Virus record (IMG/VR): IMGVR_UViG_3300037090_000118 | Span: 1-33,077 of that record | Reading direction: 5' to 3' (one strand) | Source: a virus | Length of the DNA: 33,077 bases | In this document: piece after piece, positions 4,000-22,885 of the stretch | Layout: each line of letters starts with the position of its first letter | Position numbering within the stretch: the first letter of the stretch is position 1 | Notes under the pieces: generated by a model | Databases searched by the model: none | The model's input: only the letters and a program-made list of their open reading frames with translations | What the model was told of the DNA's origin: nothing | Position numbers and translations under genes: made by a program

Positions 4000-5763
4000 T
4001 TGTTTTTTTTCTTCTTCTGTTTTTTGTTGGCTAAATGTTCCTTTAGTAATATCAAACTCCAAAGATTCAACCCCTAAGCAACCGTGATTTTTAAATCTCA
4101 TTTTTTTACAATGTATATCTGTTAATCCTGTTTTTTCGTTTCTATAAATAATTATTCCTATGTCCGGCTTATTTCTCCAATGTGCAGAATCGCTTATATC
4201 ATATAATTCAGGAACCAAATAAGAACCATCTTCGTTCTTCTTTGGTTTTGCTGGATGTCCAGAAACAATAACGATTTGATTATTTATTCTTGCATAACGG
4301 CGCAACTTCATTAAATTATATCCAACAAATTCAGTCAAGGACATTTCGGTTGGCCGAGTATGTTCAAGTTCATTATATGGATCAATAATTAATCCGTCAA
4401 TATTCAAATCTTTGGCTGTGTTTAATATCATATCTAAAGTAACGGACTCGTTGTTGATCCCTATTAATTTATAATGTTCTTCAAGAAATTTCATAGATTC
4501 TTCTACGTCACTAAAGTTCATCCTGTTTGATCCAAAGAAAGACATTTTTTTGTTTTTTTCAGTCAGGTTTTGAATTATAAACGGTGCCGGATAATTTTCC
4601 GGTGAATAAATAGCCCAAGTAAAATCATGTGAAACCGCAAGGTTGTTACTAATATCAAGTATAAATTCTGTTTTTCCGCTACCTGGATAACCAGTAATGA
4701 CATAAAGTAAAGATGGCACCATTGTAAATATTTTATTAATATTATTCCATCCAGTAGACAATCCTGCTTGTTTTCCATTATTATAAAATTGTTTGACACT
4801 TTCTAAATATTCCATTACCCCCGAAACGCTTGCAATCTTATCACAGTTTATTTCTCTCGGTTGCCCGTCAATCTGTTCACCTATTTTTATGTTTTTATCA
4901 CCTATAGTATTGGAACAGTTATTAATCGCCCGCTCTATTGTTATTTGCCCATAGGTATATCCATTAGCAAAATGTACTTTATCCCATTTAGGGCGCATTA
5001 ATCCTGATTGCCGAAATAAAGAATCTATTTCTATAAAATTTCTTGATGTCCAGAAAGCAAGATGATTACATAACGCCATATCTGCGGATGAATGATCTCC
5101 TGAATATGCGGAGGTATCTCCTTGCCAAAGAGCCTGTATTTTAAATCCGTTTATAGCTTTGAACATTTTTTCTGGAAGATCGTTTATTTTTGTAGTATTA
5201 TTATTATAATTTAACAATGTTTCTGTTTTATTTTGTTTTGTTTTTTGTATCATTTCGTAAATTTTATTTATTTCATCTTCGTTTAGTTCTCTAAAATCTT
5301 TTTTATTTTGAAAGACGTTTCCAGTAAAAGTAAAATATCTTTTGCAACCATAAATTTCCGCTTTTTGTGTTTTCACCGAAGGTTTTAAAAGTTTTCCACC
5401 ACAAAAAACATGGAAGCCATCCCCACTTGGGGATATTTCGGTGTAACTATTTGCCTCCTCTATTATTTCTAACGCCCAAGGCTCAATAAAATCACTTGCA
5501 TCACTAAGACAATGGTCAAGATCAATTAAAATAAATGCCTCCGGCTCAATCCCAGACTGAAACCCTATACCATCAAAATCATTTGAAACGGATAATGCTG
5601 TGTTAAAATCCGTCCAGGTTTTTGAATTATTGCTTTCTGCTTTTCCAAAACTATTTGCCCTATATGGTACTTTCGTTTCTTTACCCTCACGTATTTCACG
5701 TTTCCAGACTATCCAATTTGGAACAGATAACATTTTCTCAGGCACAATAGCAATGTTAACCAT
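3976..5763 (-). CDS. Primase-helicase fusion (AEP primase + RecA-like helicase)
   Basis: 595 aa. The N-terminal archaeo-eukaryotic primase/polymerase domain shows the metal-binding pair D81-L-D83 (ILIDLDHCL), the SPSGDGFHVF motif (111-120) and an RYFTFTGN strand (142-149). A helical segment follows (about 205-285, WQGDTSAYSGDHSSADMAL and GYTYGQITIERAI), as in NrS-1-type phage polymerases. The C-terminal helicase has Walker A GYPGSGKT (358-365), Walker B GLIIDPYNEL (D461) and a later IVIVSGHPAKP strand. It would prime and unwind DNA at the phage fork. Its ATG overlaps the initiator gene by 8 bases. The last codons (GDIW, TGA) abut the TnpB element, and the TGA itself uses bases inside the proposed element end, so the native C-terminus may differ by a few residues. 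Confidence 0.88.
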   Translation of the reverse strand: MVNIAIVPEKMLSVPNWIVWKREIREGKETKVPYRANSFGKAESNNSKTWTDFNTALSVSNDFDGIGFQSGIEPEAFILIDLDHCLSDASDFIEPWALEIIEEANSYTEISPSGDGFHVFCGGKLLKPSVKTQKAEIYGCKRYFTFTGNVFQNKKDFRELNEDEINKIYEMIQKTKQNKTETLLNYNNNTTKINDLPEKMFKAINGFKIQALWQGDTSAYSGDHSSADMALCNHLAFWTSRNFIEIDSLFRQSGLMRPKWDKVHFANGYTYGQITIERAINNCSNTIGDKNIKIGEQIDGQPREINCDKIASVSGVMEYLESVKQFYNNGKQAGLSTGWNNINKIFTMVPSLLYVITGYPGSGKTEFILDISNNLAVSHDFTWAIYSPENYPAPFIIQNLTEKNKKMSFFGSNRMNFSDVEESMKFLEEHYKLIGINNESVTLDMILNTAKDLNIDGLIIDPYNELEHTRPTEMSLTEFVGYNLMKLRRYARINNQIVIVSGHPAKPKKNEDGSYLVPELYDISDSAHWRNKPDIGIIIYRNEKTGLTDIHCKKMRFKNHGCLGVESLEFDITKGTFSQQKTEEEKKQEGRGDIW

Positions 5764-6857: not shown

Positions 6858-7313
6858 ATGGCTGCTGAAGGTGCCCCTCCTAATAACAACTTTGCAGAAA
6901 AGTACAAAACCCCAAAAGAACGTCAAGCTTTGTGTGAAAGATATTGTTCTTACTTGAAAAAAGGCGGGTATCCTTCATATTTTCCAGAGTGTTCTGACAA
7001 AACAATAGAACGATATATAAAAGATTTCCCAGTTGATTTTCCCACCGAAAAGATAGAAGAAGCAGAGCGCGAATACAAGCGTTACTATTTTGACCTTCTT
7101 GAGCAGGGTGCAACTGGTAAAATACACGGCTACAACGCGCCGTCTGCAATCTTTCTCGCAAAAAATATAAATAAATTCCGCGACAATCACGACATTACCT
7201 CTGGTGGTGAAAAAATAAAATCAGTACCACCTCAAATTATAGTTACCGATCAAGCTACAGCAAGCTTTGTCAAAAAGATGCTGTGTGGGCCGGATGATTC
7301 TCCCGAATCTTGA
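6858..7313 (+). CDS. Terminase small subunit
   Basis: 151 aa from the ATG at 6858, with GAAGGTG 7 nt upstream; an in-frame TTG at 6843 is less likely. The N-terminal half has a helical DNA-recognition arrangement (YKTPKERQALCERYCSYLKK, then CSDKTIERYIKDFP). The middle reads EEAEREYKRYYFDLLEQG, and GYNAPSAIFLAKNINKFRD is the common TerS oligomerisation pattern. It recognises the packaging site and regulates the large subunit's ATPase. The assignment rests on these motifs, the size, and the 20-base overlap with terL. Confidence 0.8.
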   Translation: MAAEGAPPNNNFAEKYKTPKERQALCERYCSYLKKGGYPSYFPECSDKTIERYIKDFPVDFPTEKIEEAEREYKRYYFDLLEQGATGKIHGYNAPSAIFLAKNINKFRDNHDITSGGEKIKSVPPQIIVTDQATASFVKKMLCGPDDSPES

Positions 7314-9144
7314 AACCACAACAGTATTTTCTCGTAACCGCAGGGCGTTCGAGGAGGGTTATAAAGTCATTGTGAATCAGGGTGGAACTTCAAGTAGTAA
7401 AACCTATTCAATTCTTCAATTGCTTATCGTATTAGCTGCATCATCTTTTTACAATGCTGGTATAATTTCTGTTGTATCTGAATCAATTCCTCACCTTAAG
7501 CGCGGAGCAATCCGTGATTTTCAAAAAATAATGGGTGAAAAGTTTGACGATATGGCGTTCAATAGAACGGATCATATTTACAAGTTTGATAAATCCCAGA
7601 TGGAGTTTTTCAGCGCGGATGATTCCGCCAGGTTGCGTGGTGGTAGGAGAAATATTCTTTTTCTCAACGAGTGTAATAACATTACAATGGATTCTTTTGA
7701 TGAACTTGATGTAAGAACGGAGGGCTGTACTTTTGTTGATTATAACCCCGTTTCTGAATTTTGGATACATCAATTACTACAACAAAACGGAATAAACGAT
7801 TTTACAAAAGATTGTTTTCCAGAAGATCACAAACAAATATGCTTTATTCATTCCACCTATATGCAGGCTCGACAGGTTCTTCCCAAAGACACAATAGATA
7901 AGATTGAATCACGTAGGGAAAGAGATGTAAATTGGTGGAATGTTTATGGCTTGGGTCTTGTGGGTAACATTGAGGGGCTTGTACACCCGCTGTTTACCAC
8001 TTGTGACGAAATGCCGCTGCCCGGCTCCGGCCCTGAGTTTTTCGGGCTAGACTTTGGCTTTACTGACGAAACCTCATTGATTAAATGTATGGTGGTCGGT
8101 GACCAGCTTTATTGTGATCAGCTAATATACGAAACCGGCCTCACCAATCCGCAAATTTCCCGCCGTATGGAATCTTTAGGTGTTCGCAAAAACCATGACG
8201 AAATATTTGCTGATAGTGCAGAGCCTAAATCAATTAAAGAAATTGCCTCATACGGATTCAACATAAAGGGTGTGGAAAAAGGTCCAGATAGCGTTCGTGC
8301 TGGTATTTTGAAGGTTAATGAATACCGCCAGGTCTGGACTAAGCGCAGTGTAGACTCAATCAAAGAGCAGCGCAATTTTCGTTACATTCAGAAAGATGAT
8401 GGCACTTTTACCGATAAGCCTATGGATGATTTTGGACATAGTATGGCTGCTCGTCGCTATGCCGTTATAAGCAAACACCTACAGGCTATCGAGCGCATGA
8501 AGTGTTTGGTACATGACATATCAAAGTTTGTTAAGGATGATCCGCTGGGTGGGTTCTACGAGGTTATAAACGGCTTTGCGGTGCGTGAAAATTGGGCGAC
8601 TATTGTCACCTGCCAATGGGATAAGGATAATGGACTTTTGCATGTTAATTTTGAAGCTACAATGAACACTATTGAGAACATAAAGGCTTACTGCGAATCT
8701 GTGAAAAAAGCCATGAATGTAGCGCCGCCCGTAATGAATCCTACCAATGGCGCTGCGGTGCAGAACCTTGTGAGCCAGTTAATCGCGCAGAAGGTTCCGG
8801 TTGTTATTGACCAGACGTTTGACGCTATTGGAACGTTGTATTTTCTTAATAACGTAATTGACCGGCGAAAGTTCACCATGAATAGCCAAGCAGAATCTCT
8901 ACGACAAGCCATGCAAAGCGATACGGAAGTAAAGAACCTTTCCCCGCACTTAGAAGCGTTGCTGTATATCGTAAATAACATAGCAATCAAGGTTAAAGCC
9001 GAGGACAACAGAAAGCCGCTCAAAATGTTCAGCAAAGAAAAGTTTGAATACCAGAAGGAACAGGAGCTGACATTAAAGGGGCGCGAGCGTAACCCGGACG
9101 GAACGTTGAAACCAATAGATAAAGGATATGCGCAGGGGTGGTAA
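7294..9144 (+). CDS. Terminase large subunit with long C-terminal extension
   Basis: 616 aa from the ATG at 7294 (the earlier TTG at 7267 is a weaker start). The ATPase has an unusual Walker A, QGGTSSSKT (29-37), Walker B with catalytic Glu, ILFLNE (121-126), and a coupling region VDYNPVSEFW (148-157). The RNase H-like nuclease shows D253 (FFGLDFGFTDE), D307 (EIFADSAEP) and the DDFGHSMAARRY segment (378-389). It packages the genome into the prohead through the portal and cuts the concatemer. About 200 residues after the nuclease (410-616) are not part of a standard terminase and are unexplained; they read as alternating strands and helices (WATIVTCQW, PVVIDQTFDAIGTLYFL). Confidence 0.92.
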   Translation: MILPNLETTTVFSRNRRAFEEGYKVIVNQGGTSSSKTYSILQLLIVLAASSFYNAGIISVVSESIPHLKRGAIRDFQKIMGEKFDDMAFNRTDHIYKFDKSQMEFFSADDSARLRGGRRNILFLNECNNITMDSFDELDVRTEGCTFVDYNPVSEFWIHQLLQQNGINDFTKDCFPEDHKQICFIHSTYMQARQVLPKDTIDKIESRRERDVNWWNVYGLGLVGNIEGLVHPLFTTCDEMPLPGSGPEFFGLDFGFTDETSLIKCMVVGDQLYCDQLIYETGLTNPQISRRMESLGVRKNHDEIFADSAEPKSIKEIASYGFNIKGVEKGPDSVRAGILKVNEYRQVWTKRSVDSIKEQRNFRYIQKDDGTFTDKPMDDFGHSMAARRYAVISKHLQAIERMKCLVHDISKFVKDDPLGGFYEVINGFAVRENWATIVTCQWDKDNGLLHVNFEATMNTIENIKAYCESVKKAMNVAPPVMNPTNGAAVQNLVSQLIAQKVPVVIDQTFDAIGTLYFLNNVIDRRKFTMNSQAESLRQAMQSDTEVKNLSPHLEALLYIVNNIAIKVKAEDNRKPLKMFSKEKFEYQKEQELTLKGRERNPDGTLKPIDKGYAQGW

Positions 9145-9146
9145 AA

Positions 9147-9311
9147 ATGTTTGAATCAGCCAAGGCAATTATAGCCCACAGGGAGGAACAAAATGAACCT
9201 ATTGTGCAAAAAGATATAGATTATATTGCTAAAACATGTGCAAGTGAAATCATGAAGGTGATTGATGATGTTTATAAAAATAAAAAAGAAGTCAAAAAGG
9301 TCTCGGAATGA
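9147..9311 (+). CDS. Hypothetical 54-aa protein
   Basis: ATG at 9147 with a strong AGGGGTGG ribosome site; the stop overlaps the next ATG (ATGA). It begins MFESAKAIIAHREEQNEPIV, is mostly helical, and ends in a Lys-rich tail (VYKNKKEVKKVSE). No family recognised. Confidence 0.65.
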   Translation: MFESAKAIIAHREEQNEPIVQKDIDYIAKTCASEIMKVIDDVYKNKKEVKKVSE

Positions 9312-10315
9312 AACTGTATAATCTCGACCAGCACGTTTCGGTGAACAGCGACCTTGAATTTATCTGGCGTAAACTTGGTCACGAGCTTGATATTGACAGC
9401 ATTTCCGGCCATTCGTGGGTGATGGGAAGGGAGCGCAAGCATGTTCCACTGGTTGAAAATAATATTGGCAGTATTGTCGAGAAAGAATTGTGGCGAGAGT
9501 TTTATGATACTTACCATGAAAGATTATCAGCTTATGACGGATACGTATGCTGCTATCCGCCCGTGTTCGCCCTGCTCTACAAGCAATTTACAGACAAGCG
9601 CGTTATTGTTCACATACCAATCAGATATGATTTCCCCTATACAGACAATGAGCCAAGCCTCAAAGTGCTCAATGATTTTCTTGTCAGTGATCCCGTGATT
9701 GTATCAGCTAACAACAAGTTGGACAAGGCTTATTTTGAGGACCGTACAAATGGCAAGAAAGAGTGTAAATACATTCCGTCGCTGTGTGAATATACCGGGA
9801 TGAAATGGGCACCAAAGCGCAGTGAGTTTTTGCTGTATGATGGATCACGAAAATGGCGCATTGATGGCACGCTGAATAGGTATGACGATTTTCACCCGCA
9901 TACGTGGAATGATATACAGTCTTTCCGTGGTATTATTCATATGCCGTATAATATTTCGACCATGAGCATGTTTGAGCAGTACACCGCCTGCATACCGCTG
10001 TTCTATCCGTCGAAAGAGTTTTTACTTAAAATGTACCGGAGTGGGGCCGGTGTGCTTGAACAATGTTTCTGGTCAACAACACAGCACGGCAAGTACGGAT
10101 TTGGCACAATAGAATCTGTGCTTGATTTGGCAGATTTCTACAGTGAGACATTCCCGCATATTATCACTTTTGATAATCTGGCGCAGCTTGATGATAAGCG
10201 GTATGATGATGCGTTTTTGGAGTGGACAAGCACAGAAATGGAAAAGGATAACCAATGGAACAGAAGCGTCGTGTACAAGGCGTGGGAAGAAATCCTAAGC
10301 GAGTTAAAAAAGTAA
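9308..10315 (+). CDS. Glycosyltransferase-like protein (GT-B type, tentative)
   Basis: 335 aa, coupled by ATGA to the preceding gene. The N-terminus has no Rossmann glycine loop, but the middle (KRVIVHIPIRYDFPYTD; DPVIVSANNKLDKAYFE) and the C-terminal half (SFRGIIHMPYNISTMSMFEQYTAC then IPLFYPSKEFLLKMY) look like a GT-B acceptor/donor cleft: an EQ-like pair in a helix after a beta strand. It opens the accessory cassette between terL and portal, with five further glycosyltransferase-like genes, which supports the reading. The substrate is unknown. A sugar-modifying enzyme of another fold is possible. Confidence 0.5.
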   Translation: MKLYNLDQHVSVNSDLEFIWRKLGHELDIDSISGHSWVMGRERKHVPLVENNIGSIVEKELWREFYDTYHERLSAYDGYVCCYPPVFALLYKQFTDKRVIVHIPIRYDFPYTDNEPSLKVLNDFLVSDPVIVSANNKLDKAYFEDRTNGKKECKYIPSLCEYTGMKWAPKRSEFLLYDGSRKWRIDGTLNRYDDFHPHTWNDIQSFRGIIHMPYNISTMSMFEQYTACIPLFYPSKEFLLKMYRSGAGVLEQCFWSTTQHGKYGFGTIESVLDLADFYSETFPHIITFDNLAQLDDKRYDDAFLEWTSTEMEKDNQWNRSVVYKAWEEILSELKK

Positions 10316-10440
10316 AATGGGACGGAAGATTTCAAAGTCCTGTTTTAGCTAAGATGGCCAAGTTATTAGTTAAAGCAAATAGAAAAAAACTTGATAGGGA
10401 AATATTGGACTTTCTTACTATTGGTGGTTTAGGTGAGTAA
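10255..10440 (+). CDS. Small very basic protein
   Basis: 61 aa with AAGGA upstream of an ATG lying inside the preceding gene (61-base overlap); the stop overlaps the next GTG start by 8 bases. Nearly a third of residues are Lys/Arg (PKRVKKVKWDGRF; KANRKKLDREILDF). It may bind nucleic acid. An internal ATG (MAKLLVKANRKK) would give a 28-aa product without the overlap. Confidence 0.5.
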   Translation: MEQKRRVQGVGRNPKRVKKVKWDGRFQSPVLAKMAKLLVKANRKKLDREILDFLTIGGLGE

Positions 10441-11179
10441 GCGCGTCATAAGCTTTTCCTTGTGGGGGCAATCCAAGCAATACTGCTGCGGCGCAATAGC
10501 CAACGCCCGTCTTGCGCCCAAGCTGTTCCCCGGCTGGACGTGCAGGTTCTACTGTGCTGACGACGTACCAAAGCGCGTTGTAGATGACCTTAAGGCCGAG
10601 GGTGCGGAGATAATGCCGGAGCATACTGGCGTGGGCTTTGTGGGGCTATTCTGGCGGCTCAAGGTGGCGGATGATGTCTATGTTGACCGGTTTATTGTCC
10701 GTGATACGGATAGCCGCCTAACGCCACGGGACGCGGCCTGTGTGAAGGAATGGGAGGAGTCCGGGTTGCCGTTTCACATTATCAGGGATTGTGAGTCGCA
10801 CGGTGGCTGGATTTTGGGCGCTACATTTGGCATGGTTAATTCATTTCTGCCGGAAGTGTGCCATACAACCATGCAGGAGCTTCTTGTAGAGTTTTGGGAG
10901 GACTGGTATGTGGGCTTAACTGAGCATGGCTATGAGAGTGACCGGGGAAAGTTCTATGGAGTCGATCAGGAGTTCCTTTCGAGAAAAATATGGAATTTAA
11001 TAAGGGACAATCATCTTGCTCATGTTGCTGATTATGCTTGTTTGAAATTTACAGGAAAAGAAAAACTCGCTCCCCCAATAAATAGAAAACCAGGAGAAAG
11101 CAGTTTAACGGCAGAGGCGTATGTTGGACAAGTATGCAATTTAGAGCCTGAATGGGAATTATACAGTTATGATTTGTAA
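10433..11179 (+). CDS. GT-A-type glycosyltransferase-like protein
   Basis: 248 aa, GTG start overlapping the preceding gene. It begins KRVISFSLWGQSKQYCCGAI, then LAPKLFPGWTCRFYCADDVP and FWRLKVADD, and has a DxD pair D91-T-D93 (VRDTDSRL) at the end of a strand, as in metal-dependent GT-A enzymes. The following FHIIRDCESHGGWILGATFG is also typical of this group of short polysaccharide-type transferases. It would use a nucleotide-sugar donor in the cytoplasm. The acceptor is unknown: a virion protein or host surface glycan are both possible. Confidence 0.72.
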   Translation: MSKRVISFSLWGQSKQYCCGAIANARLAPKLFPGWTCRFYCADDVPKRVVDDLKAEGAEIMPEHTGVGFVGLFWRLKVADDVYVDRFIVRDTDSRLTPRDAACVKEWEESGLPFHIIRDCESHGGWILGATFGMVNSFLPEVCHTTMQELLVEFWEDWYVGLTEHGYESDRGKFYGVDQEFLSRKIWNLIRDNHLAHVADYACLKFTGKEKLAPPINRKPGESSLTAEAYVGQVCNLEPEWELYSYDL

Positions 11180-11321
11180 ATCAATTTATATTTATGCCTT
11201 AGTTGATCCCAATACTCATGATGTGAGATATATTGGTAAATCGTATAATCCATATCAAAGATTGCTACAACACTGTAATTGTAAGAAGAAATTTTATGTA
11301 ACATTAAAGATGGGGGTTTAA
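11169..11321 (+). pseudogene. GIY-YIG homing endonuclease N-terminal relic
   Basis: A 50-codon frame beginning MICKSIYIYALVDPNTHDVR and containing VRYIGKSYNPYQRLLQHC. This is the GIY-YIG N-terminus (YIYALVDP ... VRYIGK) and matches the intact copy at 22886-23593 (FIYSLADP ... VRYVGKANDPYRRYCEH). It stops after about a fifth of the full protein, lacking the rest of the nuclease and all NUMOD3 repeats, so the enzyme is dead. It overlaps the 3' end of the upstream glycosyltransferase by 11 bases, and the next gene starts 3 bases after its stop. Confidence 0.8.
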
Positions 11322-11323
11322 AA

Positions 11324-11620
11324 ATGTCGCTTGAGCGTAAACCAACCGAATCTTTCGAGCAGTACCAGACCCGCCGCAAGGCAGAAAACCTTACTGAGCG
11401 TACTTATCTGCGTGGCATGATTAGTCATCAATCAAAAAAGATTATTATGTTGACAACACGACAAATGGTTGATGAGGCAAATAAAAACGACTCATTGGCT
11501 CGTTATAAACTTGGTGACCATATAATTGTGCATAGCACATATAAAACGCCACCAAACACTGTTCCACGATTGGATAAGTGGCAGAGAAGGAAACTGAGAA
11601 AAATAGTAGCGAAAGGATAA
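11324..11620 (+). CDS. Hypothetical 98-aa protein
   Basis: Starts MSLERKPTESFEQYQTRRKA with GGGGG a short way upstream. Basic and probably helical at both ends, with a beta-rich middle (LGDHIIVHSTYKTPPN). No known motif. It sits between the GIY-YIG relic and a glycosyltransferase. Confidence 0.55.
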   Translation: MSLERKPTESFEQYQTRRKAENLTERTYLRGMISHQSKKIIMLTTRQMVDEANKNDSLARYKLGDHIIVHSTYKTPPNTVPRLDKWQRRKLRKIVAKG

Positions 11621-11623
11621 ATT

Positions 11624-12739
11624 ATGCCAATTTCTCATCAGGCCTTTTTTTTCTGGGGACAAAACACAGCGTTGCCTTATACTAGATATTTGACACTTGC
11701 CACGTTTCGTTTGCAGCACCCTGATTGGCCTATGGCGTTGTACCAGTGCCGTTGTGCCGACAAGGATCATTGGGGCTGCGGGATCTTTGTGGACTTCCAG
11801 TTCAACGGTGAGGAGCTTGAAAAGCTTTACCGTGAGCTTGAGACTGAGGGTGTAAAGGTAGAACAAAATCTACGCGATGTTGCCTATGACGTGCTTCTGC
11901 ACAGTAAAGAGCCTGCGCCGTGGGACTCAATACGGTATGACCAGGCCGCTATTAAGGCCGCACTAAAGACTTGCACAACGCAAGAAACACTTACTTCTAA
12001 ACTGCAAAAAGTTGTGGATAAGCGCATGGCGCGTGAGGCTCTGCGGCCACAGAAGCATAATTATATCCAGGAAGCGGTGGAACGTCTTGGGGTGGAGCTA
12101 CGTGAATATGCGCCTGCCGACAAGCGCGTCTATACTATGCCACCGCCGAACGTGAGCGACATATTTAGCGTGGAGATCCTTGGGCAGCAGGGCGGTTGGT
12201 ACTTGGACCTGGACCAGGTTGTGTTAAAGCCATTAACCGGCTTAAGCAACCACTATGATTTTGTTTGTGGCGGGCAAACCGTGTTCTACATTGGCATATT
12301 CGGTAGCAAACAGGGCGGGGCTGTGGTTGGTGATTTCTACGGAAAGATGCTTGGCAGCTACGATCCAAAGTTCTACAATTCGTCAGGCATATCCGCCATT
12401 GTTCATAGCAGCCTTGAGGACAATGCTTGGCTGGCGTGGTTTAAAGACACGCGCAATGGAACAAACCATATCCTTGAGCAAAATCATTTTTACCCGTTGC
12501 TTGCGCCTGACGGCTCAAACAGGTTTTGGAGCGGTAATTTTGATATTTGCGGCAACGATGCGGCGGGGAGTGAGTGTGTACATTTTTATGGGGGGAACCC
12601 TGTCAGCCAGAAATTCTTTAGGGAAATGACACCGGATAATATTTTATCTTACGAGGGTGGAGCAAACTGTATGTCAAAATACATAGCAAAGGTTTCCAAT
12701 GGTGGACAATCGAATAAGAAAATATTCTGCTTTGAATGA
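11624..12739 (+). CDS. DXD-motif glycosyltransferase
   Basis: 371 aa, AAAGGA upstream. The N-terminus reads FFFWGQNTALPYTRYLTLAT followed by a donor-binding-type HPDWPMALYQC. The key signature is GGWYLDLDQVVLKPL, with D195-L-D197 after a hydrophobic strand, the hallmark of the Gly_transf_sug (DXD sugar-binding) family that transfers hexoses from nucleotide sugars with a divalent metal. Later H-rich and GG segments (EQNHFYPLL, HFYGGNPVSQ) agree with this family's C-terminal side. It is the best-supported enzyme of the accessory cassette. Acceptor unknown. Confidence 0.82.
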   Translation: MPISHQAFFFWGQNTALPYTRYLTLATFRLQHPDWPMALYQCRCADKDHWGCGIFVDFQFNGEELEKLYRELETEGVKVEQNLRDVAYDVLLHSKEPAPWDSIRYDQAAIKAALKTCTTQETLTSKLQKVVDKRMAREALRPQKHNYIQEAVERLGVELREYAPADKRVYTMPPPNVSDIFSVEILGQQGGWYLDLDQVVLKPLTGLSNHYDFVCGGQTVFYIGIFGSKQGGAVVGDFYGKMLGSYDPKFYNSSGISAIVHSSLEDNAWLAWFKDTRNGTNHILEQNHFYPLLAPDGSNRFWSGNFDICGNDAAGSECVHFYGGNPVSQKFFREMTPDNILSYEGGANCMSKYIAKVSNGGQSNKKIFCFE

Positions 12740-12745
12740 GGCAAT

Positions 12746-13216
12746 ATGCTGTTTGAAGTAAACGCATCCGACATCTTTGAAATATCCGCGCTGATAGCGG
12801 CAGAAGCGGAAACGGGAAGCGTGCTGCCGCGCTGCGTTGATTATGTGGCAGATCACTTGCCCAGCTTTGCCATTGTCAGGTGTGACGATAGGATAATTGG
12901 TTGCGCATCGTATAGGATATTCTACCAAATAGGCGAGCAGTCCATAGCTGAAATACGCTCGCTTGTTGTTGACCCGGAATACCGCAAGCAAGGCTACGGC
13001 GATTTTCTTATGATGGAAATTGCAAGGGAAATCGGTGAAAGGTGCATAAAAAGAATGTTTGTGTTTACGCTTGTGCCAGAGTTTTTCAAGCAGTACGGCT
13101 TTCATACGGTAGATGATGATTATGTTATAAAAACCACGTGGCTAGAAGATTGTAAAATTTGTCGCCATAATAACAAGGATTGTAAAGAAATATTCATGGT
13201 GAAGGAGGTTATATGA
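12746..13216 (+). CDS. GNAT-family N-acetyltransferase
   Basis: 156 aa. The acetyl-CoA-binding motif is LVVDPEYRKQGYGDFLM (RKQGYG at 80-85), preceded by the EIRSL strand and followed by the FVFTLVPEFFKQYGFHTV segment, as in ArgA-like acetyltransferases. The C-terminus has an extra Cys/His cluster (CKICRHNNKDC) that could bind a metal. It transfers an acetyl group from acetyl-CoA to an amine. Sitting among glycosyltransferases, acetylation of an amino sugar is a reasonable guess; a protein N-terminal or small-molecule target cannot be excluded. The 3' end overlaps the next start (ATGA). Confidence 0.85.
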   Translation: MLFEVNASDIFEISALIAAEAETGSVLPRCVDYVADHLPSFAIVRCDDRIIGCASYRIFYQIGEQSIAEIRSLVVDPEYRKQGYGDFLMMEIAREIGERCIKRMFVFTLVPEFFKQYGFHTVDDDYVIKTTWLEDCKICRHNNKDCKEIFMVKEVI

Positions 13217-13392
13217 GTATCATAACCAGGATACTGCTGATAGTGTTGGTGTGTTTTGTGGGTGGCGTTTGTGGTTGCTGTTTTGTGCTAGAGGAAGAAT
13301 GGGCTCGAAGCGACGTTCTTGATTTTGGAATACTGATATTGCTATTATTCTGGTTCGTAATGGAACGCTTGAATATGTACGGGAAACAATAA
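13213..13392 (+). CDS. Small two-TM membrane protein
   Basis: 59 aa, strong GGAGGT ribosome site, ATGA overlap with the GNAT gene and TAATG overlap with the next gene. The first hydrophobic stretch runs about 5-25 (ILLIVLVCFVGGVCGCCFVL); the second is about 38-50 (FGILILLLFWFVM), with an acidic loop EEEWARSD between. A holin-like or membrane-anchor role is possible, but no endolysin neighbours it. Confidence 0.65.
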   Translation: MSIITRILLIVLVCFVGGVCGCCFVLEEEWARSDVLDFGILILLLFWFVMERLNMYGKQ

Positions 13393-14102
13393 TGTTTGAT
13401 CGCATTAATCTTATGGTGCCGTCATATAAACGGCCTGCAATGCTGCGGACGTTTATTGATTCCGCATTGGAAACAGCAACAAATGAAGACAATCTGTGCT
13501 GGACAATCTTACTCAATGAAAAGGATGATTCATACAAAGATTTTGTTTGGCCTATAAATTGTTGCATACTAAAGGAGAACTCCGGTGAACCAAACTTATC
13601 AGCATATTTCAACCAGATGTACAATGAAACGGCGCATAAAGGTGACGATGTTTTGGTCACTATGCTTGGTGATGATATGGCTTTTGAAACTTCGGGATGG
13701 GATGTTCAAATTCTTGCTAAGATTAACGAGAAAAATGGCATCGGAATAGTCCACTGTGAGGACGGCTTTTGCTCCCACGGCGCTTGCCCGGTGAATATAT
13801 TTACTACACGCAAGTTTGTTGAAGCCTGCGGTGGTGAGTTTATGTGTAGTGCGTTCAAGCGGTTCTGGATGGATGAAATATGGGGGCGGCTGGCGGATAT
13901 GGCAAAGTGCAATTATTTTCTGCCAAACGTGGTGGTTAAACACAACCACACAAGTGGCAAGAACAGCCACGACGAAACATTTCGGCGGTTAGAAAATATG
14001 GGTGTGCATGAAATGGCTGGCGGAATTGATGTGGCGCGTGAGGCTATTTGGCCGTTTATTGAAGTTATGTATGACAACCTATTAGAAAGTGGGTTAATAT
14101 GA
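13392..14102 (+). CDS. Glycosyltransferase family 2-like protein
   Basis: 236 aa. The N-terminal LMVPSYKRPAMLRTF strand-loop is typical of GT2 nucleotide binding. The acidic pair is D94-D95 in VTMLGDDMAFE, followed by the GIGIVHCEDG strand and a catalytic-type FWMDEIWGRL helix. It would transfer a sugar from a nucleotide donor, in the cytosol. It overlaps the GroES gene by four bases. Target unknown. Confidence 0.72.
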   Translation: MFDRINLMVPSYKRPAMLRTFIDSALETATNEDNLCWTILLNEKDDSYKDFVWPINCCILKENSGEPNLSAYFNQMYNETAHKGDDVLVTMLGDDMAFETSGWDVQILAKINEKNGIGIVHCEDGFCSHGACPVNIFTTRKFVEACGGEFMCSAFKRFWMDEIWGRLADMAKCNYFLPNVVVKHNHTSGKNSHDETFRRLENMGVHEMAGGIDVAREAIWPFIEVMYDNLLESGLI

Positions 14103-14452
14103 GCGACCCTATCCATGATGACATGCCTGAAGTCAAACGTGACACTATGCAGCCGCATGGTGACCGCGTTCTCTTGCGCATGGAGAAGCCCAAACAAAAG
14201 GGCGCTATACTAATCCCGGACAGTGTAAAGTCTCTGGACAATTGCTGGTATGGCGTTGTGCTCGCCAAGGGCAAAGGCGATAATGCTGACAATATTCCTC
14301 TTGGTGTTCGTGTCATGGTGGAAAAGATGTTTAAAATGACCGGCGGCATGGAGGGTATGGGAATGAACGGTATTGATTGTGGTGAGCATGGATTAGATGG
14401 TAAGGGGTGTATGTTGCTGGATGCAGATAAGGTGCTGGCGGTGGTGGAATGA
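14099..14452 (+). CDS. groES: GroES-like co-chaperonin
   Basis: 117 aa. MQPHGDRVLLRMEKPKQKGA is the GroES N-terminal strand plus mobile loop, with the Ile-Leu-Ile tip (GAILIPDS) that contacts GroEL. GVVLAKGKG and LGVRVMVEKMF follow, and the C-terminus CMLLDADKVLAVVE is canonical. A Gly/Met-rich stretch (MTGGMEGMGMNG) replaces the roof segment. Phage GroES proteins (such as T4 gp31) adapt host GroEL to fold the large capsid protein, so this is likely a capsid-assembly factor although it lies within the sugar cassette. Both ends are coupled to neighbours by ATGA overlaps. Confidence 0.9.
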   Translation: MSDPIHDDMPEVKRDTMQPHGDRVLLRMEKPKQKGAILIPDSVKSLDNCWYGVVLAKGKGDNADNIPLGVRVMVEKMFKMTGGMEGMGMNGIDCGEHGLDGKGCMLLDADKVLAVVE

Positions 14453-15084
14453 AAAATGCTGTTCTTGTTACCGCTATTCCTGACATGGATTGGGTAAAAA
14501 CTCATGGCGCTATGTGCCTCGAAGTTATTCGCAAGTATTTTGAGCGGCACAATCATGAATTGATAGTAATTACCGAGAGGCCCAAGGTTGACGCAAAGCA
14601 CAATTCATGGTTGTGGTTGTTAGGACATAAATTGTATCCAGGTTATAATTATTTACTTTGTTGGAACCTCGACATATTGCCGCAGCTATTCGATGTGGAC
14701 ATCTTTGATTATCTTGACATGAACCGGATTGCGGCTTGTGTTGAATTTAATGGCCTTAGTACATTTCCTTATTATCGTTATAATTGCGGACTTGTGGGAA
14801 TGCCACAAAAGTATCAAGCCTTTTTTGAGGGGTGTTTTAATAAATGGGGCAACAATCCCAAAAACTGGCCGTCTTGGGAACAATATTATGTTAATATGGA
14901 ACTCGGAGAACAGGCAATAGACGTTCAAGAAATACCTCGCAAGTTCAATACCTTTTATGAAAGTAATGAAAAAGATACTGTTTGCGTTCATTATTCTTTT
15001 TCTGTTTACAAGGATAGGGCCCCTCTTGCCACGGACGCAATGGAAAAACATTATAAGCGGTTGAAAAAAGTCGGAACAATATGA
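14449..15084 (+). CDS. Glycosyltransferase-like protein
   Basis: 211 aa, start within the GroES stop (ATGA). The N-terminus VLVTAIPDMDWVKTHGAMCL and a middle YLLCWNLDILPQLFDVD (N73-L-D75, a degenerate DxD) suggest a GT-A fold like small GT8-type phage transferases. RIAACVEFNG and YRYNCGLVGMPQKYQAFF follow. The missing first Asp of the DxD means metal binding is not assured. It may be catalytic with a variant motif or inactive. The stop overlaps the radical SAM start by four bases. Confidence 0.62.
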   Translation: MKNAVLVTAIPDMDWVKTHGAMCLEVIRKYFERHNHELIVITERPKVDAKHNSWLWLLGHKLYPGYNYLLCWNLDILPQLFDVDIFDYLDMNRIAACVEFNGLSTFPYYRYNCGLVGMPQKYQAFFEGCFNKWGNNPKNWPSWEQYYVNMELGEQAIDVQEIPRKFNTFYESNEKDTVCVHYSFSVYKDRAPLATDAMEKHYKRLKKVGTI

Positions 15085-15995
15085 TCTTCGCGCCACAATT
15101 AAAACTTGCTTCACATCCGCAATTTCCAAAGTTCCTTACTGGCGAAACCGTTCCGATTATCAATATAGAAATTTCACCTTCGAGCGTATGTGATGCAAAG
15201 TGCTCCGCTTGTTTTTACAAGGAAGATAAGAACGTAAAAGAAAAGTTCATTCACTGGGGGCCATTGTTCGCCTTTCTTCTTGATGCTGACACTCATGGTC
15301 TTGAGGCCATAACTTGGAGCGGCGGCGGCGAACCAACCTTGCACCCGGATTTTTCTGATCTTGTTTTCCGTGTGGCATCACAAACAAAATTGAACCAAGG
15401 CTTGTTTACCAATGCTTTGTTAAAACCGAAATACCGAGCCAGCTTTCTTAAATGGATTCGTGTATCAAAAACAAATGAGTCATGGCCTGACGGACACATA
15501 TTTTTGCTAAGACAGCAAAATGCCAATGTGGGTTTGTGTGTTAATTACCGGGGAAAAGAGGACGATTGGGACATTAAGGAGGGCTTGCGGCTTGTTCACA
15601 AGATGGAGTTACGGTATCTCCAGGTTCGACCCGCGCTCAATATTATGGGCAAGACAATAGAGATTAATCTCCCAGACATTAAAGACGACAAGTTGATTAT
15701 CACACCTTATAAATTCCACGAATGCTCAAAAAAAGATCGAGGATATACGCTTTGCCAAGGCTTTCATTTTTCAACCATGATTTGGGAAAACGGCATGATG
15801 TCGCCCTGTATGTACATGAGACATCATCAAGAATACAACATTGGCAGCATTTATGAAAATCGCTTTGTGGATTTGTGTGAAAAAATGCCCAAGAGCTTGC
15901 CCGTGCTCGATGATTGTCAGATTTGTTGTAAAAATAACGAGATTAATAAACTGATAAACGATTGCAAAAAATTGGAAGATGTGAGTTTTGTATAA
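15081..15995 (+). CDS. Radical SAM protein with C-terminal Cys cluster
   Basis: 304 aa. The iron-sulfur motif is SVCDAKCSACFYKED: C37, C41, C44 in the CxxxCxxC spacing. The SAM-binding GGGEPTLHPDF (81-91) follows, in the order expected for a radical SAM barrel. The C-terminal third has further cysteines (SPCMYMRH; DDCQICCKN), like a SPASM-type auxiliary cluster. These proteins generate a 5'-deoxyadenosyl radical to modify peptides, sugars or cofactors. It is framed by glycosyltransferase genes with four-base and zero-base joins, so it probably acts in the same pathway. The substrate is unknown. Confidence 0.87.
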   Translation: MIFAPQLKLASHPQFPKFLTGETVPIINIEISPSSVCDAKCSACFYKEDKNVKEKFIHWGPLFAFLLDADTHGLEAITWSGGGEPTLHPDFSDLVFRVASQTKLNQGLFTNALLKPKYRASFLKWIRVSKTNESWPDGHIFLLRQQNANVGLCVNYRGKEDDWDIKEGLRLVHKMELRYLQVRPALNIMGKTIEINLPDIKDDKLIITPYKFHECSKKDRGYTLCQGFHFSTMIWENGMMSPCMYMRHHQEYNIGSIYENRFVDLCEKMPKSLPVLDDCQICCKNNEINKLINDCKKLEDVSFV

Positions 15996-16547
15996 ATGAT
16001 ACTATCCATCCTTATACCAACACTTTTAGACCGTGCAGACATGCTCAAAAATCTTATGTCTGATCTTTACGAGCAAGCGGAATTGATTAATGCTGATTCT
16101 GACATTGAGATTGTATGCAACAAAGATAAGGGTGAACAGACAACTGGCTACAAGCGCAACAAGCTCCTGAGCGACGCGGTGGGGGAATATATAGTATTCG
16201 TGGACGACGATGACAAGGTATCTCACTCTTATTGTAAGCTGATTATGGATGCACTGGCAAGCAAGCCGGACGTTGTTGGGATAAGAGGGATATATATCGT
16301 CAATGGGCAATACAATGGTGTTTTCGAACATTCAATCAAGCATAAGGCGTGGTCACAAGAGGGAAACAAATATTACCGTTGCCCAAACCATTTAAATCCA
16401 GTGCGTCGTGAACTTGCATTACAGGCCGGGTTCCCAAACACAATAATCGGTGAGGACAGGGATTACAGCATGAATCTGTTACCGCTATTGAAGACAGAGG
16501 TAATGATCGAAACTCCAATTTACGAATATTACGCGAGGGCTAAATGA
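15996..16547 (+). CDS. Glycosyltransferase family 2
   Basis: 183 aa, ATG directly after the radical SAM stop. MILSILIPTLLDRADMLKNL is the GT2 N-terminal strand and helix. GYKRNKLLSDAVGEYIVFVD then DDDKVS (D70-D73) is the donor/metal site. A later GEDRDYSMNL helix resembles the catalytic-base ED motif. It is short for the family but contains all core elements, and is the clearest GT2 in the cassette. Its last bases overlap the zinc-ribbon gene that follows. Confidence 0.85.
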   Translation: MILSILIPTLLDRADMLKNLMSDLYEQAELINADSDIEIVCNKDKGEQTTGYKRNKLLSDAVGEYIVFVDDDDKVSHSYCKLIMDALASKPDVVGIRGIYIVNGQYNGVFEHSIKHKAWSQEGNKYYRCPNHLNPVRRELALQAGFPNTIIGEDRDYSMNLLPLLKTEVMIETPIYEYYARAK

Positions 16548-16780
16548 CCCACCCCGCGCTACAGGCCGTGAGGTGTCCCAGGCTGCGCAACAAGGGCGGC
16601 AGGCACGATACTTTATGTAACGCTCTTGTAATACCGGGAAAGGATTATGCTTTTTGTCATAAATGTAGTGCGTTTTTCAGGATTATAAGAGTTCCCGGCA
16701 AGCCGCTAAAGTTGATTGATATTGATAAGGATGAAATTAGGTTTATGTGGCTGTTACTGGAATATCAAAATATATCTTGA
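16544..16780 (+). CDS. Com-like zinc-ribbon regulator
   Basis: 78 aa, ATGA overlap with the GT2 gene. Two cysteine pairs lie in RCPRLRNKGGRHDTLCNALV and CHKCSAFFRI: a zinc ribbon resembling Mu Com, a translational activator that binds mRNA. The C-terminal half (LKLIDIDKDEIRFMWLLLEY) is not typical of Com. It could regulate the phage or bind another protein. Confidence 0.6.
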   Translation: MTHPALQAVRCPRLRNKGGRHDTLCNALVIPGKDYAFCHKCSAFFRIIRVPGKPLKLIDIDKDEIRFMWLLLEYQNIS

Positions 16781-16805
16781 CACACAAGCCGCTTGAGTGT
16801 ATAAT
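16777..16805 (+). promoter_or_regulatory. Perfect-consensus sigma70 promoter
   Basis: TTGACA (16777-16782), exactly 17 bases, TATAAT (16800-16805). It overlaps the last bases of the zinc-ribbon gene and fires into the 46-aa gene and the lipoprotein. It lacks the block shared by the two late promoters, so it should work with host RNA polymerase alone. A start at +7 would put the transcript start on the ATG at 16812 (leaderless). Confidence 0.88.
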
Positions 16806-16811
16806 ATAAGT

Positions 16812-16952
16812 ATGGATAAAATAAGTAAGTACTTTTCTAAGATCGGTCGAAAGGGTGGCAAATCCGGGAAGGGAGATTCTAAGCGGCGTGGCAATTCGGA
16901 TTATTACAGGAGAATAAGAAAAGGGAACAATAAACAAGGAGGTAAAAAATGA
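16812..16952 (+). CDS. 46-aa basic protein, possibly leaderless
   Basis: ATG only seven bases after the -10 box, no ribosome site, so translation would be leaderless; alternatively it is not translated. It begins MDKISKYFSKIGRKGGKSGK and ends KQGGKK; very rich in Lys, Gly and Arg, like small DNA- or RNA-binding peptides. It ends with an ATGA overlap with the lipoprotein gene, whose GGAGG site lies in this gene's last codons; that overlap is the best evidence it is real. Confidence 0.5.
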   Translation: MDKISKYFSKIGRKGGKSGKGDSKRRGNSDYYRRIRKGNNKQGGKK

Positions 16953-17350
16953 AAAAGGTAATTATTTTTTTAGTAGGAGTTTTGTTGTGTTGCAGCAATC
17001 CGACAGCACCTAAAACTGCGGTGATAGCTTGGAGGGTTGTTAAGATTTATTACGATCCACAAATATCACCTCCGTTTGATGACCGGATAGTAAGCAAAGA
17101 TACCTCAAGAGTTTTATACAGGGACAGCACTGACAGTATGTCGTTTAAACAGTTTGGAACATGGCACTCTATACCGGCGTGGTATGGTTCTGAAATAGGT
17201 ATTCCTACTGGCGATACCATACGTATTTTCTCTAATGGCATAAATGATACGTTGCGCTCATATTTTACCTGTAATGGTTTGTTGTATTTTGCCGGTAATG
17301 GCGCAGATACTTTGATTGTCACCAAAGACACGACTTGGATATTGAATTAA
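16949..17350 (+). CDS. Small lipoprotein-like surface protein (moron)
   Basis: 133 aa, strong AAGGAGG ribosome site. A short Lys-led signal peptide (MKKVIIFLVGVLL) runs into Cys-Cys-Ser-Asn (C14/C15), a lipobox-like site although the residue before the Cys is not Gly/Ala/Ser. The mature part is polar and beta-rich, with no catalytic motif. Phage lipoproteins under their own host-type promoter, among late genes, are commonly superinfection-exclusion factors that block the phage receptor or DNA entry; that is inference here. No +2 Asp, so outer-membrane localisation is likely in a Gram-negative host. A secreted protein without lipid remains possible. Confidence 0.65.
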   Translation: MKKVIIFLVGVLLCCSNPTAPKTAVIAWRVVKIYYDPQISPPFDDRIVSKDTSRVLYRDSTDSMSFKQFGTWHSIPAWYGSEIGIPTGDTIRIFSNGINDTLRSYFTCNGLLYFAGNGADTLIVTKDTTWILN

Positions 17351-17479: not shown

Positions 17480-19624
17480 ATGCCAGAAAATCAGCTACAA
17501 GAAGGTTTGCCAGAGAGTGCCGCTACTGCCGCCGCTGCCGTTATCGAACGGGCGATGGGTGTCGGACAGCAGAAGGTAAATTTCGTTAATACCCGCTTCC
17601 AGAATTGTCTCAACGCTTTAATTCCTCGTCGTGACCGCCTCTTTTTAAACCTCGACAAATACTGCGGATACCAACTCGACCCAGAGCAGATTAAAAAACT
17701 GGACAAGGCCCGCCGTGTGCCTATTGTGATGAATCTTTCCAAACGCAAGGTTCAGGGGCTTGCTGCGGCAATCGTAAAGAACATCTGGGACATTGACGTG
17801 TTGCCTATGGATGGCAAGCGTAATACGCTGATGTATGCTATCCAGGACATGATGAAGGTTGACCAGAGTTATTCGCGCTGGGACTACAACTTTCTCATGC
17901 ACATCATCTATGCGCTGATTTCTGATTCTGTAATGGAGATGATTTTTACCAATGAAATTGACCCTATGGGGCGCATAGGGTGGGAAGTGTGCCAGCCAGG
18001 GATGGTTGCTTATGATCCTAATTGGAGAACGGGCGTAAGCAAAGACTTAAATTTTGTTTTCAAATACATGAAGCTCACCGCCGACCAGATCATGCAGCTC
18101 TACCCAGACCAAACAGAGAGAATACAAAGAAACCTCCTAATGGATTTAACACTGGGCGGAAATTTTGATACTCCAAAAATCTCAGATTACAAAGACTATA
18201 CACAGTCTAAAACCATGAATGGGCAATATGATGTAGTGGAATATAATTACGTTGTTGAGGAAGAAGATGTTGTAGAGGTTGCCATTAACGCAAATCTTGA
18301 GTTGCCCAAGACCGATGACTACCAAGTTAAAAAGGATTTCGTTGAAGCAAACAAAATAAAATATGAAGACATTCATTCCATTTATCAAACAATAAAAAAG
18401 CCAAAAATTTGCACAATATGTCCTGGTATTGTTCCTGAACAACCCCTTTACGACGGATATGATATATTCCAGATCAAACGCCTCAGATTTTTCCCTCTTG
18501 CATCAGAGCGTATTGTCGGTGAGCCTTTTGGAATCATGGATGTGCTTACTAACATGCAGGATGCTATTAACAAACTGATAAACAACTCACAAGGAATTAT
18601 TGATTCGGCTGCTCATGGCGGCGGGGCTGTCAATCCTGAGATTGTTGGTAACGATGATACAAAAATGGAGGAGATTAAAAAGCGTTGGAGCGATCCGTTC
18701 TATAAATTCTTTGGCAGCCCTGCCGCTTTTGCATCAGGGAAGTCAATGTTTTTACCCTTTCCGCACAATGACGTTGATGCCGGGATATTTAATCAGCTTT
18801 CTAAAATACTTTATGAATTGAACAATGATGTTCTACCGCTAAATCCTGCCGCCGAGGGAAAAAGCGAACACGCCGGCGAGCCTGGCATTCTATTCAACAT
18901 GAAGATGCAAATTATTGAGCAGGCGCAGCTTGTTTTAATGAGAAACATAGAGAATTTCCTACTTGAAGCTGGTGAGGCTTATGTTGATGCTGGAAAAATA
19001 CTCTATAGTAAAACTAAACGAACATTCTATAAGAATGATGGCTCGGAAATAGTTATTAATGATATAAAAACTTTACCCAGTGGTGACATTGCAATAGATA
19101 ACGATTTGGGAAGTTTACAGCGATGCCGCATTGTAGTTACTCTCTCCCCGAAATCTCCTAATTCTCAGTTTACAAAGCGCATGACTCACATGGACGTATT
19201 GAACCTTCTTTACAAAGACGCTGTGAACAACATTGAGCTAATAGGCATGACACAGGGAAAAATTCTTGAAACTATTCCGTGTGATGATGAGGAAGAAAAG
19301 ATACGCGCCCAGATGATTGAGCGGCGTAACCAGCTTGGTAAGATGAGAATGGATGCAATGCTTAACACGCCTCCTGGCGGCGCACAACAGAAGCCGCCGA
19401 CGTTGGCTTTCAGGTACGCCGATCTTGAACCCGAAGCAAAAGTACAGGCATTGAAGAAAATTGGCATAGAGGTGGGGTCACAGCAAGGACAGGAACCAGG
19501 GCAACAACAGGGACAGCCGCAACAGCCCCCACATGCCGAGGCCCAGCAAAAATTACAGCAGAATTTACAACCACTCACAGCTCCGCAAGGGGCAAGCCAG
19601 ACGGCAAGTCCGTCTCAAACTTAA
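17480..19624 (+). CDS. Portal protein
   Basis: 714 aa. Position (terminase side, before scaffold and capsid), length and segments fit a podovirus-type portal: KLDKARRVPIVMNLSKRKVQ, IAWE-type VCQPGMVAYDPNW, and IKRLRFFPLASERIVGEPFG followed by GIMDVLTNMQDAINKLINNSQ, the stem-to-wing transition. The C-terminus is a Gln/Pro-rich unstructured tail. It forms the dodecameric channel for DNA packaging and ejection and docks the terminase. A hairpin lies over its ribosome site. The family name is not certain, but nothing else of this length would sit here. Confidence 0.82.
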   Translation: MPENQLQEGLPESAATAAAAVIERAMGVGQQKVNFVNTRFQNCLNALIPRRDRLFLNLDKYCGYQLDPEQIKKLDKARRVPIVMNLSKRKVQGLAAAIVKNIWDIDVLPMDGKRNTLMYAIQDMMKVDQSYSRWDYNFLMHIIYALISDSVMEMIFTNEIDPMGRIGWEVCQPGMVAYDPNWRTGVSKDLNFVFKYMKLTADQIMQLYPDQTERIQRNLLMDLTLGGNFDTPKISDYKDYTQSKTMNGQYDVVEYNYVVEEEDVVEVAINANLELPKTDDYQVKKDFVEANKIKYEDIHSIYQTIKKPKICTICPGIVPEQPLYDGYDIFQIKRLRFFPLASERIVGEPFGIMDVLTNMQDAINKLINNSQGIIDSAAHGGGAVNPEIVGNDDTKMEEIKKRWSDPFYKFFGSPAAFASGKSMFLPFPHNDVDAGIFNQLSKILYELNNDVLPLNPAAEGKSEHAGEPGILFNMKMQIIEQAQLVLMRNIENFLLEAGEAYVDAGKILYSKTKRTFYKNDGSEIVINDIKTLPSGDIAIDNDLGSLQRCRIVVTLSPKSPNSQFTKRMTHMDVLNLLYKDAVNNIELIGMTQGKILETIPCDDEEEKIRAQMIERRNQLGKMRMDAMLNTPPGGAQQKPPTLAFRYADLEPEAKVQALKKIGIEVGSQQGQEPGQQQGQPQQPPHAEAQQKLQQNLQPLTAPQGASQTASPSQT

Positions 19625-20936: not shown

Positions 20937-22262
20937 ATGGCAAGTTATACAGCCTTGCAGTCGCAGAACCTTATTACCGCTGCGACCGCATTGAAAATCC
21001 AAGCTTTCGAGAAGCTCGTACAGATGAAGAGCCTTCCTGAGAGTATCTTTTTTCACCTGTCCGGCAATGTCATTGATAAGATGACACCCATTCCCGCCGC
21101 GTGGCTGCTTAAGATGCCGCCCGAGGCAGGGCAGGCGCACCAAACCAATTTCCCCTTGCTCATGTGGCTTTCGGGACAGGAAACCAAGGGCAATGCCGCT
21201 GATGAGATTAATAATGTGGAAGACCCTGTAATCAAGCAGTTCATCGCTTATTACAACGATGTTTCCCACAGCATGAAGCTCGACCAGTACGGCATTTCCT
21301 ATCTGGATACTGCTCCTTACGCTATCAAGGACAAGGCTTCTGATCTTCTGGCGACGTATTGGAAGGAACTCATGGACTACTACATGCAGTTTGCGATACT
21401 CTGGCAGGTTTCACCGAACCTTCTGGAGTCGCCGACAAACCTTTCAGTATCAGCGCACAGGAACACGTTCGTTAAGGGCGTGAATCTGGCTAACCAGCCG
21501 TGGTCAAACTATAACATGAACGCGAACTTTTTCAGCGGTGTTATTGCGGCCACAATGGATTTAGCGAAAAACGGCCATACAAACCTTTACGAAATGGGTT
21601 TTGACTTCCCGTTTGCGCTTACGATTGCAGAGTGGGCGAATTATACCGGCAAACTCAAACCCTTTAACCTTGGCGGACGCGGATCGTATATTTATGCGAT
21701 TCCTTCCAGCCAGGTTACAAGGACATTGAGTCCTATCAGCAACGGTTCGATGGGAGCGGTTTGGCAGGCAACGACAAAACTGAACACTGAGGAAGCGTCG
21801 CTGCCCCTCGTGCTCGGTCGTGCTCGTAATGTCCTGTTTGTGGAAAACCCGAGATCACCTACTGCCAAAACATACGGCAGCGGCAGCGGTTCAGGTTCCG
21901 GCCTTGGAACGACATCGCCGTACAACAGCGTACTTGAAGTTAAGTACCTGAAACCCGGCGAGAACGACCAACGGCACACCACCGGCGACATCTGGGAACC
22001 CGGTTTCCTGATGGGGATGCACGGTATTGCCGAAGTTGATGCGGGCGTACATACCGAGTACGAAGTCCAGGATTTCAAAAGGTTCAAAGCAACGGGCCTG
22101 TTTGATACGATGGGCTTCAACAGGGTTGAATACGTTCCGTCGAGTGGACAAACGGTGTCAACGTCCACCTCATCGACAACGCTTGATAACTTTTCAAGCG
22201 CGGTTACGTGGTTCTATAAGCAGTCTGCATATTGGAACATACAGACTGGTCAGACCTACTAA
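20937..22262 (+). CDS. Major capsid protein
   Basis: 441 aa immediately after the scaffold gene and followed by a strong terminator. Features are an N-terminal arm rich in helices, central strands (GYMGFDF-type YEMGFDFPFALTIAEWANY) and an HK97/P22-type long beta body. I compare it to the N4 gp56 / DUF4043 coat group, with low certainty. At residues 314-322 there is a (Gly-Ser)4-Gly stretch, a natural flexible linker, likely in a surface-exposed loop. Expected to be the most abundant virion protein. The GroES-like gene in the cassette likely helps it fold. Confidence 0.8.
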   Translation: MASYTALQSQNLITAATALKIQAFEKLVQMKSLPESIFFHLSGNVIDKMTPIPAAWLLKMPPEAGQAHQTNFPLLMWLSGQETKGNAADEINNVEDPVIKQFIAYYNDVSHSMKLDQYGISYLDTAPYAIKDKASDLLATYWKELMDYYMQFAILWQVSPNLLESPTNLSVSAHRNTFVKGVNLANQPWSNYNMNANFFSGVIAATMDLAKNGHTNLYEMGFDFPFALTIAEWANYTGKLKPFNLGGRGSYIYAIPSSQVTRTLSPISNGSMGAVWQATTKLNTEEASLPLVLGRARNVLFVENPRSPTAKTYGSGSGSGSGLGTTSPYNSVLEVKYLKPGENDQRHTTGDIWEPGFLMGMHGIAEVDAGVHTEYEVQDFKRFKATGLFDTMGFNRVEYVPSSGQTVSTSTSSTTLDNFSSAVTWFYKQSAYWNIQTGQTY

Positions 22263-22863: not shown

Positions 22864-22885
22864 ACAAATAGTGAGGGGTTTGTTA

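Follow-up and report, generated by a model that had tools for sequence, protein, structure and literature searches.

A glycosyltransferase and radical SAM gene island in the structural operon of a phage, with a probable role in virion glycosylation

The stretch of DNA analysed here (the window, 33,077 bases) belongs to virus record IMGVR_UViG_3300037090_000118 (IMG/VR) and carries, at positions 9308-16547 on the + strand, an island of genes for glycosyltransferases (GTs), a radical S-adenosylmethionine (SAM) enzyme and accessory proteins. We propose that this island probably glycosylates virion proteins and that the radical SAM enzyme alters the glycan. The proposal is supported by the occurrence of several GT genes within the virion structural operon, and by the homology of one of them, g183, to a GT from a known structural-operon island, gp15 of mycobacteriophage LittleE. 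An initial annotation had listed nine genes here (six GT-like genes and those for a radical SAM enzyme, a GNAT acetyltransferase and GroES) and placed them between terL and the portal gene; all nine are present, and the borders are as described, with TerL (Terminase_3 and Terminase_3C) on the left and a P22-like portal (PF16510) on the right (Table 1). It further suggested that the targets are virion proteins or the phage's own modified surface and that the radical SAM enzyme changes a sugar or peptide; of these options, virion proteins and a sugar are upheld as a probability. The compared proteins of the window are identical in two longer contigs; the virus records used for comparison (L numbers) may be fragments.

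Five of the six GT assignments hold by family membership or structural model, and the sixth, g211, by sequence pattern. Pfam and PHROG family searches gave no match to g335, g248 or g211, and PDB sequence searches with g335, g248 and g236 gave no reliable match. AlphaFold 2 models cover two of the Pfam-less proteins, g335 and g248, and both show GT folds. The g335 model (pLDDT 88.9, from an alignment with 11 phage homologues) contains two Rossmann-type domains that fit GT-B structures, with a PDB match to BshA at a template-modelling (TM) score of 0.63, and on this model g335 is a GT-B glycosyltransferase. The g248 model (pLDDT 89.1) is closest among PDB structures to the GT8/glycogenin type, and residues D91 and D93 of its DTD motif are invariant across 32 homologues; g248 is thus modelled as a GT-A glycosyltransferase with a DxD motif. 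The g248 fold was also found in predicted viral proteins, both from phages and from giant viruses. Among viral structures, g248 best matches giant-virus protein domains (Mimivirus LCMiAC01, 31% identity, TM 0.81), and GTs of this type therefore span phages and eukaryotic giant viruses. Two further members exceed Pfam cutoffs, g371 for PF04488 (its L007 homologue is 54% identical) and g183 for PF00535, while g236 falls in a PHROG family of glycosyltransferases and contains a D94-D95 pair that is invariant in 16 homologues. Judging from its size and an LDxxP motif that is invariant in four phage homologues, g211 is probably a GT-A glycosyltransferase; the 4-nt overlap between g211 and the radical SAM gene is repeated in L007 and L023. 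A GT8-like gene ahead of a radical SAM gene in L088 was considered as kin of g211 and rejected, there being no profile match. Profile comparison of the cassette GTs with each other detected a weak link between g183 and g236 only.

Comparison of gene order in related phages shows that the cassette is conserved. In the independent phage L007, eight of the nine genes are present in unchanged order (g335, g248, g371, g236, GroES, g211, radical SAM, g183), followed by g78, the portal gene and the probable capsid gene. The cassette proteins are 51-58% identical (GroES 39%), the portal 56% and the capsid protein 68%; the GNAT gene and g98 are missing from L007. Because an independent relative at this distance retains the order, the arrangement is not due to chance. 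The L007 TerL matches the window TerL only in its C-terminal extension (37%), and the cassette therefore travels with the portal-capsid block and not with the TerL core, which in the window is ∼50% identical to the TerL cores of L004 and L023. The mosaic joint lies inside the terL gene, the extra C-terminal region (residues ∼404-625) being L007-like and the core L004/L023-like. No cassette-gene match was found in L004, where a portal-sized open reading frame (ORF) stands immediately behind TerL.

Four of the GTs form a core with a wider distribution. Profile searches found the order g248-g236-g183-g335 in L017, L018, L021 and L085; L023 carries additional copies, and L025 has three of these genes. 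In L018, L021, L023 and L085 the core sits after ORFs that, as read from their translations, are head-tail-connector-like, with similarly named tail-like genes next where the contig extends; g211 and the radical SAM gene are also present in L023 and L085. Another cassette family occurs within 6 kb at 35 of 55 g248 loci, a set that includes near-copies. L088 and L037 also have GT islands flanked by TerL and a P22-like portal, and the L088 island includes GroES and two radical SAM genes. The L088 terL gene (L088:281-3031) carries a Hint/LAGLIDADG intein. In the fifth record that encodes a P22-like portal (behind L092), TerL adjoins the portal and the radical SAM gene is located elsewhere. Neither the portal nor the capsid candidate g441 matched any named phage, no relative in culture turned up for this lineage, and none of g335, g248, g183, g211 and g371 was found in the 1.14 Mb around cellular relatives of the radical SAM enzyme.

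The radical SAM enzyme had been described as having SPASM-like cysteines, which proved to be of the twitch type. It contains the CxxxCxxC motif together with C225, C243, C279 and C283, and these seven cysteines are conserved without exception in 14 homologues. The full SPASM label was rejected, since four C-terminal cysteines are conserved where seven are required (definition in PMC6231123) and the Pfam SPASM match is under cutoff; four correspond to the twitch arrangement with a single auxiliary cluster (PMC6231123, PMC9012708). A 90-row tree gives the enzyme's clade full support, its members being nine viral rows and one Parvarchaeota metagenome-assembled genome, and the L007 orthologue exceeds the Pfam cutoff. 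The neighbours of viral relatives, in raw counts taken without a random background, are headed by GT2 genes (11/87), followed by other radical SAM genes, methyltransferases and nucleotide-sugar epimerases. Cellular relatives have the same kinds of neighbours together with transketolase-type genes. A DegT aminotransferase gene lies in the same block as g211 and the radical SAM gene in L023 and L085. By eye, an 84-aa acyl-carrier-like ORF (L093:9692-9946) stands right before a more distant relative of the enzyme on a 170-kb contig.

These features recall BtrN of butirosin biosynthesis, in which oxidation by BtrN is followed by transamination. BtrN shares with the window enzyme one radical SAM cluster, four C-terminal cysteines for one auxiliary cluster and a carbohydrate-type context, and the DegT gene near the radical SAM gene in L023 and L085 is likewise reminiscent of butirosin biosynthesis. 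However, similarity to BtrN is weak and confined to the core (E 0.007, profile search), and the window enzyme is not assigned as a member. BtrN itself is a twitch enzyme that oxidises an aminocyclitol (PMC9012708).

The initial annotation knew of no described phage pathway with this combination, yet GT islands with methyltransferases or a kinase are known from mycobacteriophage structural operons (PMC3706429, PMC4351075). Among named relatives, g183 is closest to GTs from Mycobacterium and Gordonia phages, one of them LittleE gp15 (37.7%, 1e-25). The LittleE island, located between the capsid and head-tail connector genes, comprises a kinase and four GTs by annotation (PMC3706429). In Corndog the portal and protease genes are separated by an O-methyltransferase gene and three GT-type genes, for which the authors proposed capsid modification (PMC4351075). 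The capsids of the cluster F1 phages Che8 and Rita are reported to carry glycans (PMC11256854, citing Freeman 2023). With these precedents, an island of this kind is already known; demonstrations of virion glycosylation were found in the literature for mycobacteriophages only. The cluster J and O islands (LittleE gp15-gp21, Corndog gp35-gp38) resemble that of the window in combining several GTs with modifying enzymes in the head operon. They differ in site, which in the window is flanked by TerL and a P22-like portal, and the LittleE island showed no radical SAM enzyme, GroES or GT of the g248/g335/g211 type. The phage group, the GT families, the radical SAM enzyme and the site are new here, and no description of this radical SAM member, the Pfam-less GT families or the recurrence of the core in unrelated phages was found in the literature. 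GT and radical SAM genes also occur together in pelagimyophage host-recognition clusters, which by contrast are GT8-rich, form a large variable tail-fibre region and are read as modifying lipopolysaccharide (LPS) (PMC7029224). Podovirus ctQWt234 (MW202801.1) has a cassette of radical SAM, GT, PhyH, methyltransferase, NodB and GT genes; a radical SAM enzyme of the same superfamily branch is found there with GTs in the structural region behind the capsid gene, but that enzyme is 22% identical and outside the window's clade, the GTs are others and there is no GroES.

We envisage that cytosolic GTs, made together with capsid and portal, would draw on the host's nucleotide sugars and build up a short glycan on proteins of the virion while it assembles. 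The products of g248, g236, g183 and g335 would provide the steps common to unrelated phages, with g371 and g211 supplying lineage-specific ones. The radical SAM enzyme may abstract hydrogen from a sugar that is free, nucleotide-bound or already attached, and may oxidise or epimerise it with the single auxiliary Fe-S cluster as electron acceptor, as BtrN does with its aminocyclitol. DegT in L023 and L085 could aminate the resulting ketone, and the accessory GNAT in the window's phage could acetylate an amine. GroES probably assists the folding of capsid proteins or of the island enzymes. A possible acceptor is g441, which from its position and size is probably the major capsid protein. It has a GSGSGSG loop (residues ∼314-322) that is retained in L007, and the window version has a Ser/Thr-rich segment near the C-terminus (residues ∼402-425); that it accepts the glycan is a guess.

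Several points weigh against virion glycosylation. The genomic site is by itself no proof of the target, and soluble GTs can act on the LPS core too. The g211 call comes from a sequence pattern, the neighbour counts of the radical SAM relatives are raw, DegT was not found in the available records of the window's phage, and radical SAM function is not readable from sequence similarity (PMC6231123). The main rival explanation is that the GTs, the radical SAM enzyme and GNAT remodel the LPS core, O-chain or capsule of the host during infection, which might, for instance, keep out other phages or prevent progeny from adsorbing to debris. Cellular relatives of the radical SAM enzyme do sit in polysaccharide and nucleotide-sugar gene clusters, and the pelagimyophage genes have been interpreted in this way (PMC7029224). 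However, the island lacks any membrane protein, flippase, polymerase and lipid-carrier GT, several phage groups have the cassette embedded in their head genes, and the nearest named homologue of g183 belongs to a capsid-region island. Because of the capacity of soluble GTs to act on the LPS core, we keep host-surface modification as a real though rather doubtful alternative.

Glycosylation of modified phage bases against restriction is a known role of phage GTs (reviewed in PMC12619734), and an MT-A70 methyltransferase is encoded on a near-identical longer contig. No thymidylate-synthase/dCMP-hydroxymethylase homologue (PF00303) was found in eight related records, in which controls were positive and which may be incomplete, and the cassette is grouped with head genes, not replication genes. 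With no base hydroxymethylase, DNA hypermodification is very improbable. It is also unlikely, though less so, that the radical SAM enzyme acts on a peptide or protein side chain, in the manner of enzymes for ribosomally synthesised and post-translationally modified peptides (RiPPs), and only shares its site with the GTs. The best PDB sequence match of its profile is the sactisynthase SkfB (2.8e-10), but the ∼36 residues before CxxxCxxC are too few for the N-terminal RiPP recognition element domain of SkfB (PMC6231123), no precursor-like gene was recognised, and GT, epimerase and DegT genes are found beside relatives of the enzyme.

Table 1. Coordinates of the island, its borders and associated genes in the window.
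Feature	Position	Strand	Basis or remark
TerL, left island border	7267..9144	+	Terminase_3 + Terminase_3C; phrog_2 8e-28
g335, GT-B (modelled), without Pfam family, recurrent-core member	9308..10315	+	AlphaFold 2 model, PDB GT-B matches
g248, GT-A (modelled), without Pfam family, recurrent-core member	10433..11179	+	AlphaFold 2 model, DTD motif
g98, small protein without family match	11324..11620	+	not in L007
g371, DXD glycosyltransferase (Gly_transf_sug)	11624..12739	+	PF04488 24.8 bits, cutoff 23
GNAT acetyltransferase, accessory	12746..13216	+	PF00583 1.1e-12
g236, GT2-like, recurrent-core member	13392..14102	+	phrog_14945 5.3e-14
GroES-like co-chaperonin	14099..14452	+	PF00166 4.4e-6
g211, probable GT-A, immediately 5' of radical SAM gene	14449..15084	+	sequence pattern
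Twitch-type radical SAM enzyme	15081..15995	+	CxxxCxxC + four C-terminal cysteines
g183, GT2, recurrent-core member	15996..16547	+	PF00535 1.3e-6; phrog_14775 4e-36
g78, small Cys-rich (zinc-ribbon-like) protein	16544..16780	+	kept ahead of portal; 38% in L007
P22-like portal, right island border	17480..19624	+	PF16510 1.5e-16
g441, probable major capsid protein, possible acceptor	20937..22262	+	position + size

The island had also been described as one tight, overlapping transcript. This applies to g236 through g78, which overlap by 4 nt or abut, but not elsewhere, with genes spaced 163, 144 and 175 nt apart at three points; the island's position suggests late expression. No transmembrane stretch was detected in the cassette proteins. 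As cassette members, the GNAT and GroES genes were accepted with qualification: both pass their Pfam cutoffs, but GNAT (also PRK07757-like, 1.3e-31, under cutoff) is accessory, and GroES, also found in L007 and L088, may merely share the site. A Cys-rich 78-aa ORF akin to g78 sits before the portal in L088. Scans for promoters and terminators in the island gave results at about chance level, except for one perfect site ahead of a lipoprotein ORF. This 12-of-12 sigma-70-type promoter lies right behind g78 (region 16777-17350) and is followed by a 46-codon basic ORF (∼16812-16952) that overlaps the start of the lipoprotein-like ORF (16949-17350); the three elements look like a moron between island and portal.

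Other observations concern neighbouring genes. The scaffold-like gene behind the portal, g463, overlaps the portal gene by 92 nt (19533-19624) when called from its first ATG. Between the structural genes g174 and g224 lies a GIY-YIG-like ORF (22847-23593) that bears NUMOD3-like repeats and is not in L007. A truncated 50-codon ORF of the same kind (11169-11321), 40% identical to the longer ORF over 45 residues, occupies the 144-nt gap just 3' of g248. From motifs judged by eye, they are probably a homing endonuclease and its remnant; comparison of the 22847-23593 ORF with PDB sequences gave no match. The window also encodes a minus-strand primase-helicase with an NrS-1 polymerase-like HBD domain (3976-5763). 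Two differing TnpB/OrfB-type genes with Cas12f1-like TNB domains were seen in the genome, one in the window (2824-3963) and one at L075:15098-16324.

Our more speculative proposal, which we put forward as a tentative possibility, is a phage-specific glycan pathway that unrelated tailed phages exchange as a module. In this pathway, GT families known only from viruses would place a non-host glycan on the capsid and a viral twitch radical SAM enzyme would oxidise a sugar that is aminated by DegT in some relatives. If virion glycosylation by the island is correct, the recurrence of its core, with Pfam-less GT families and a radical SAM enzyme, in unrelated phages would suggest that tailed phages are commonly sugar-coated and that this has been overlooked. 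Such a trait would bear on adsorption and recognition, and the island would provide new carbohydrate-active enzymes with testable substrates.

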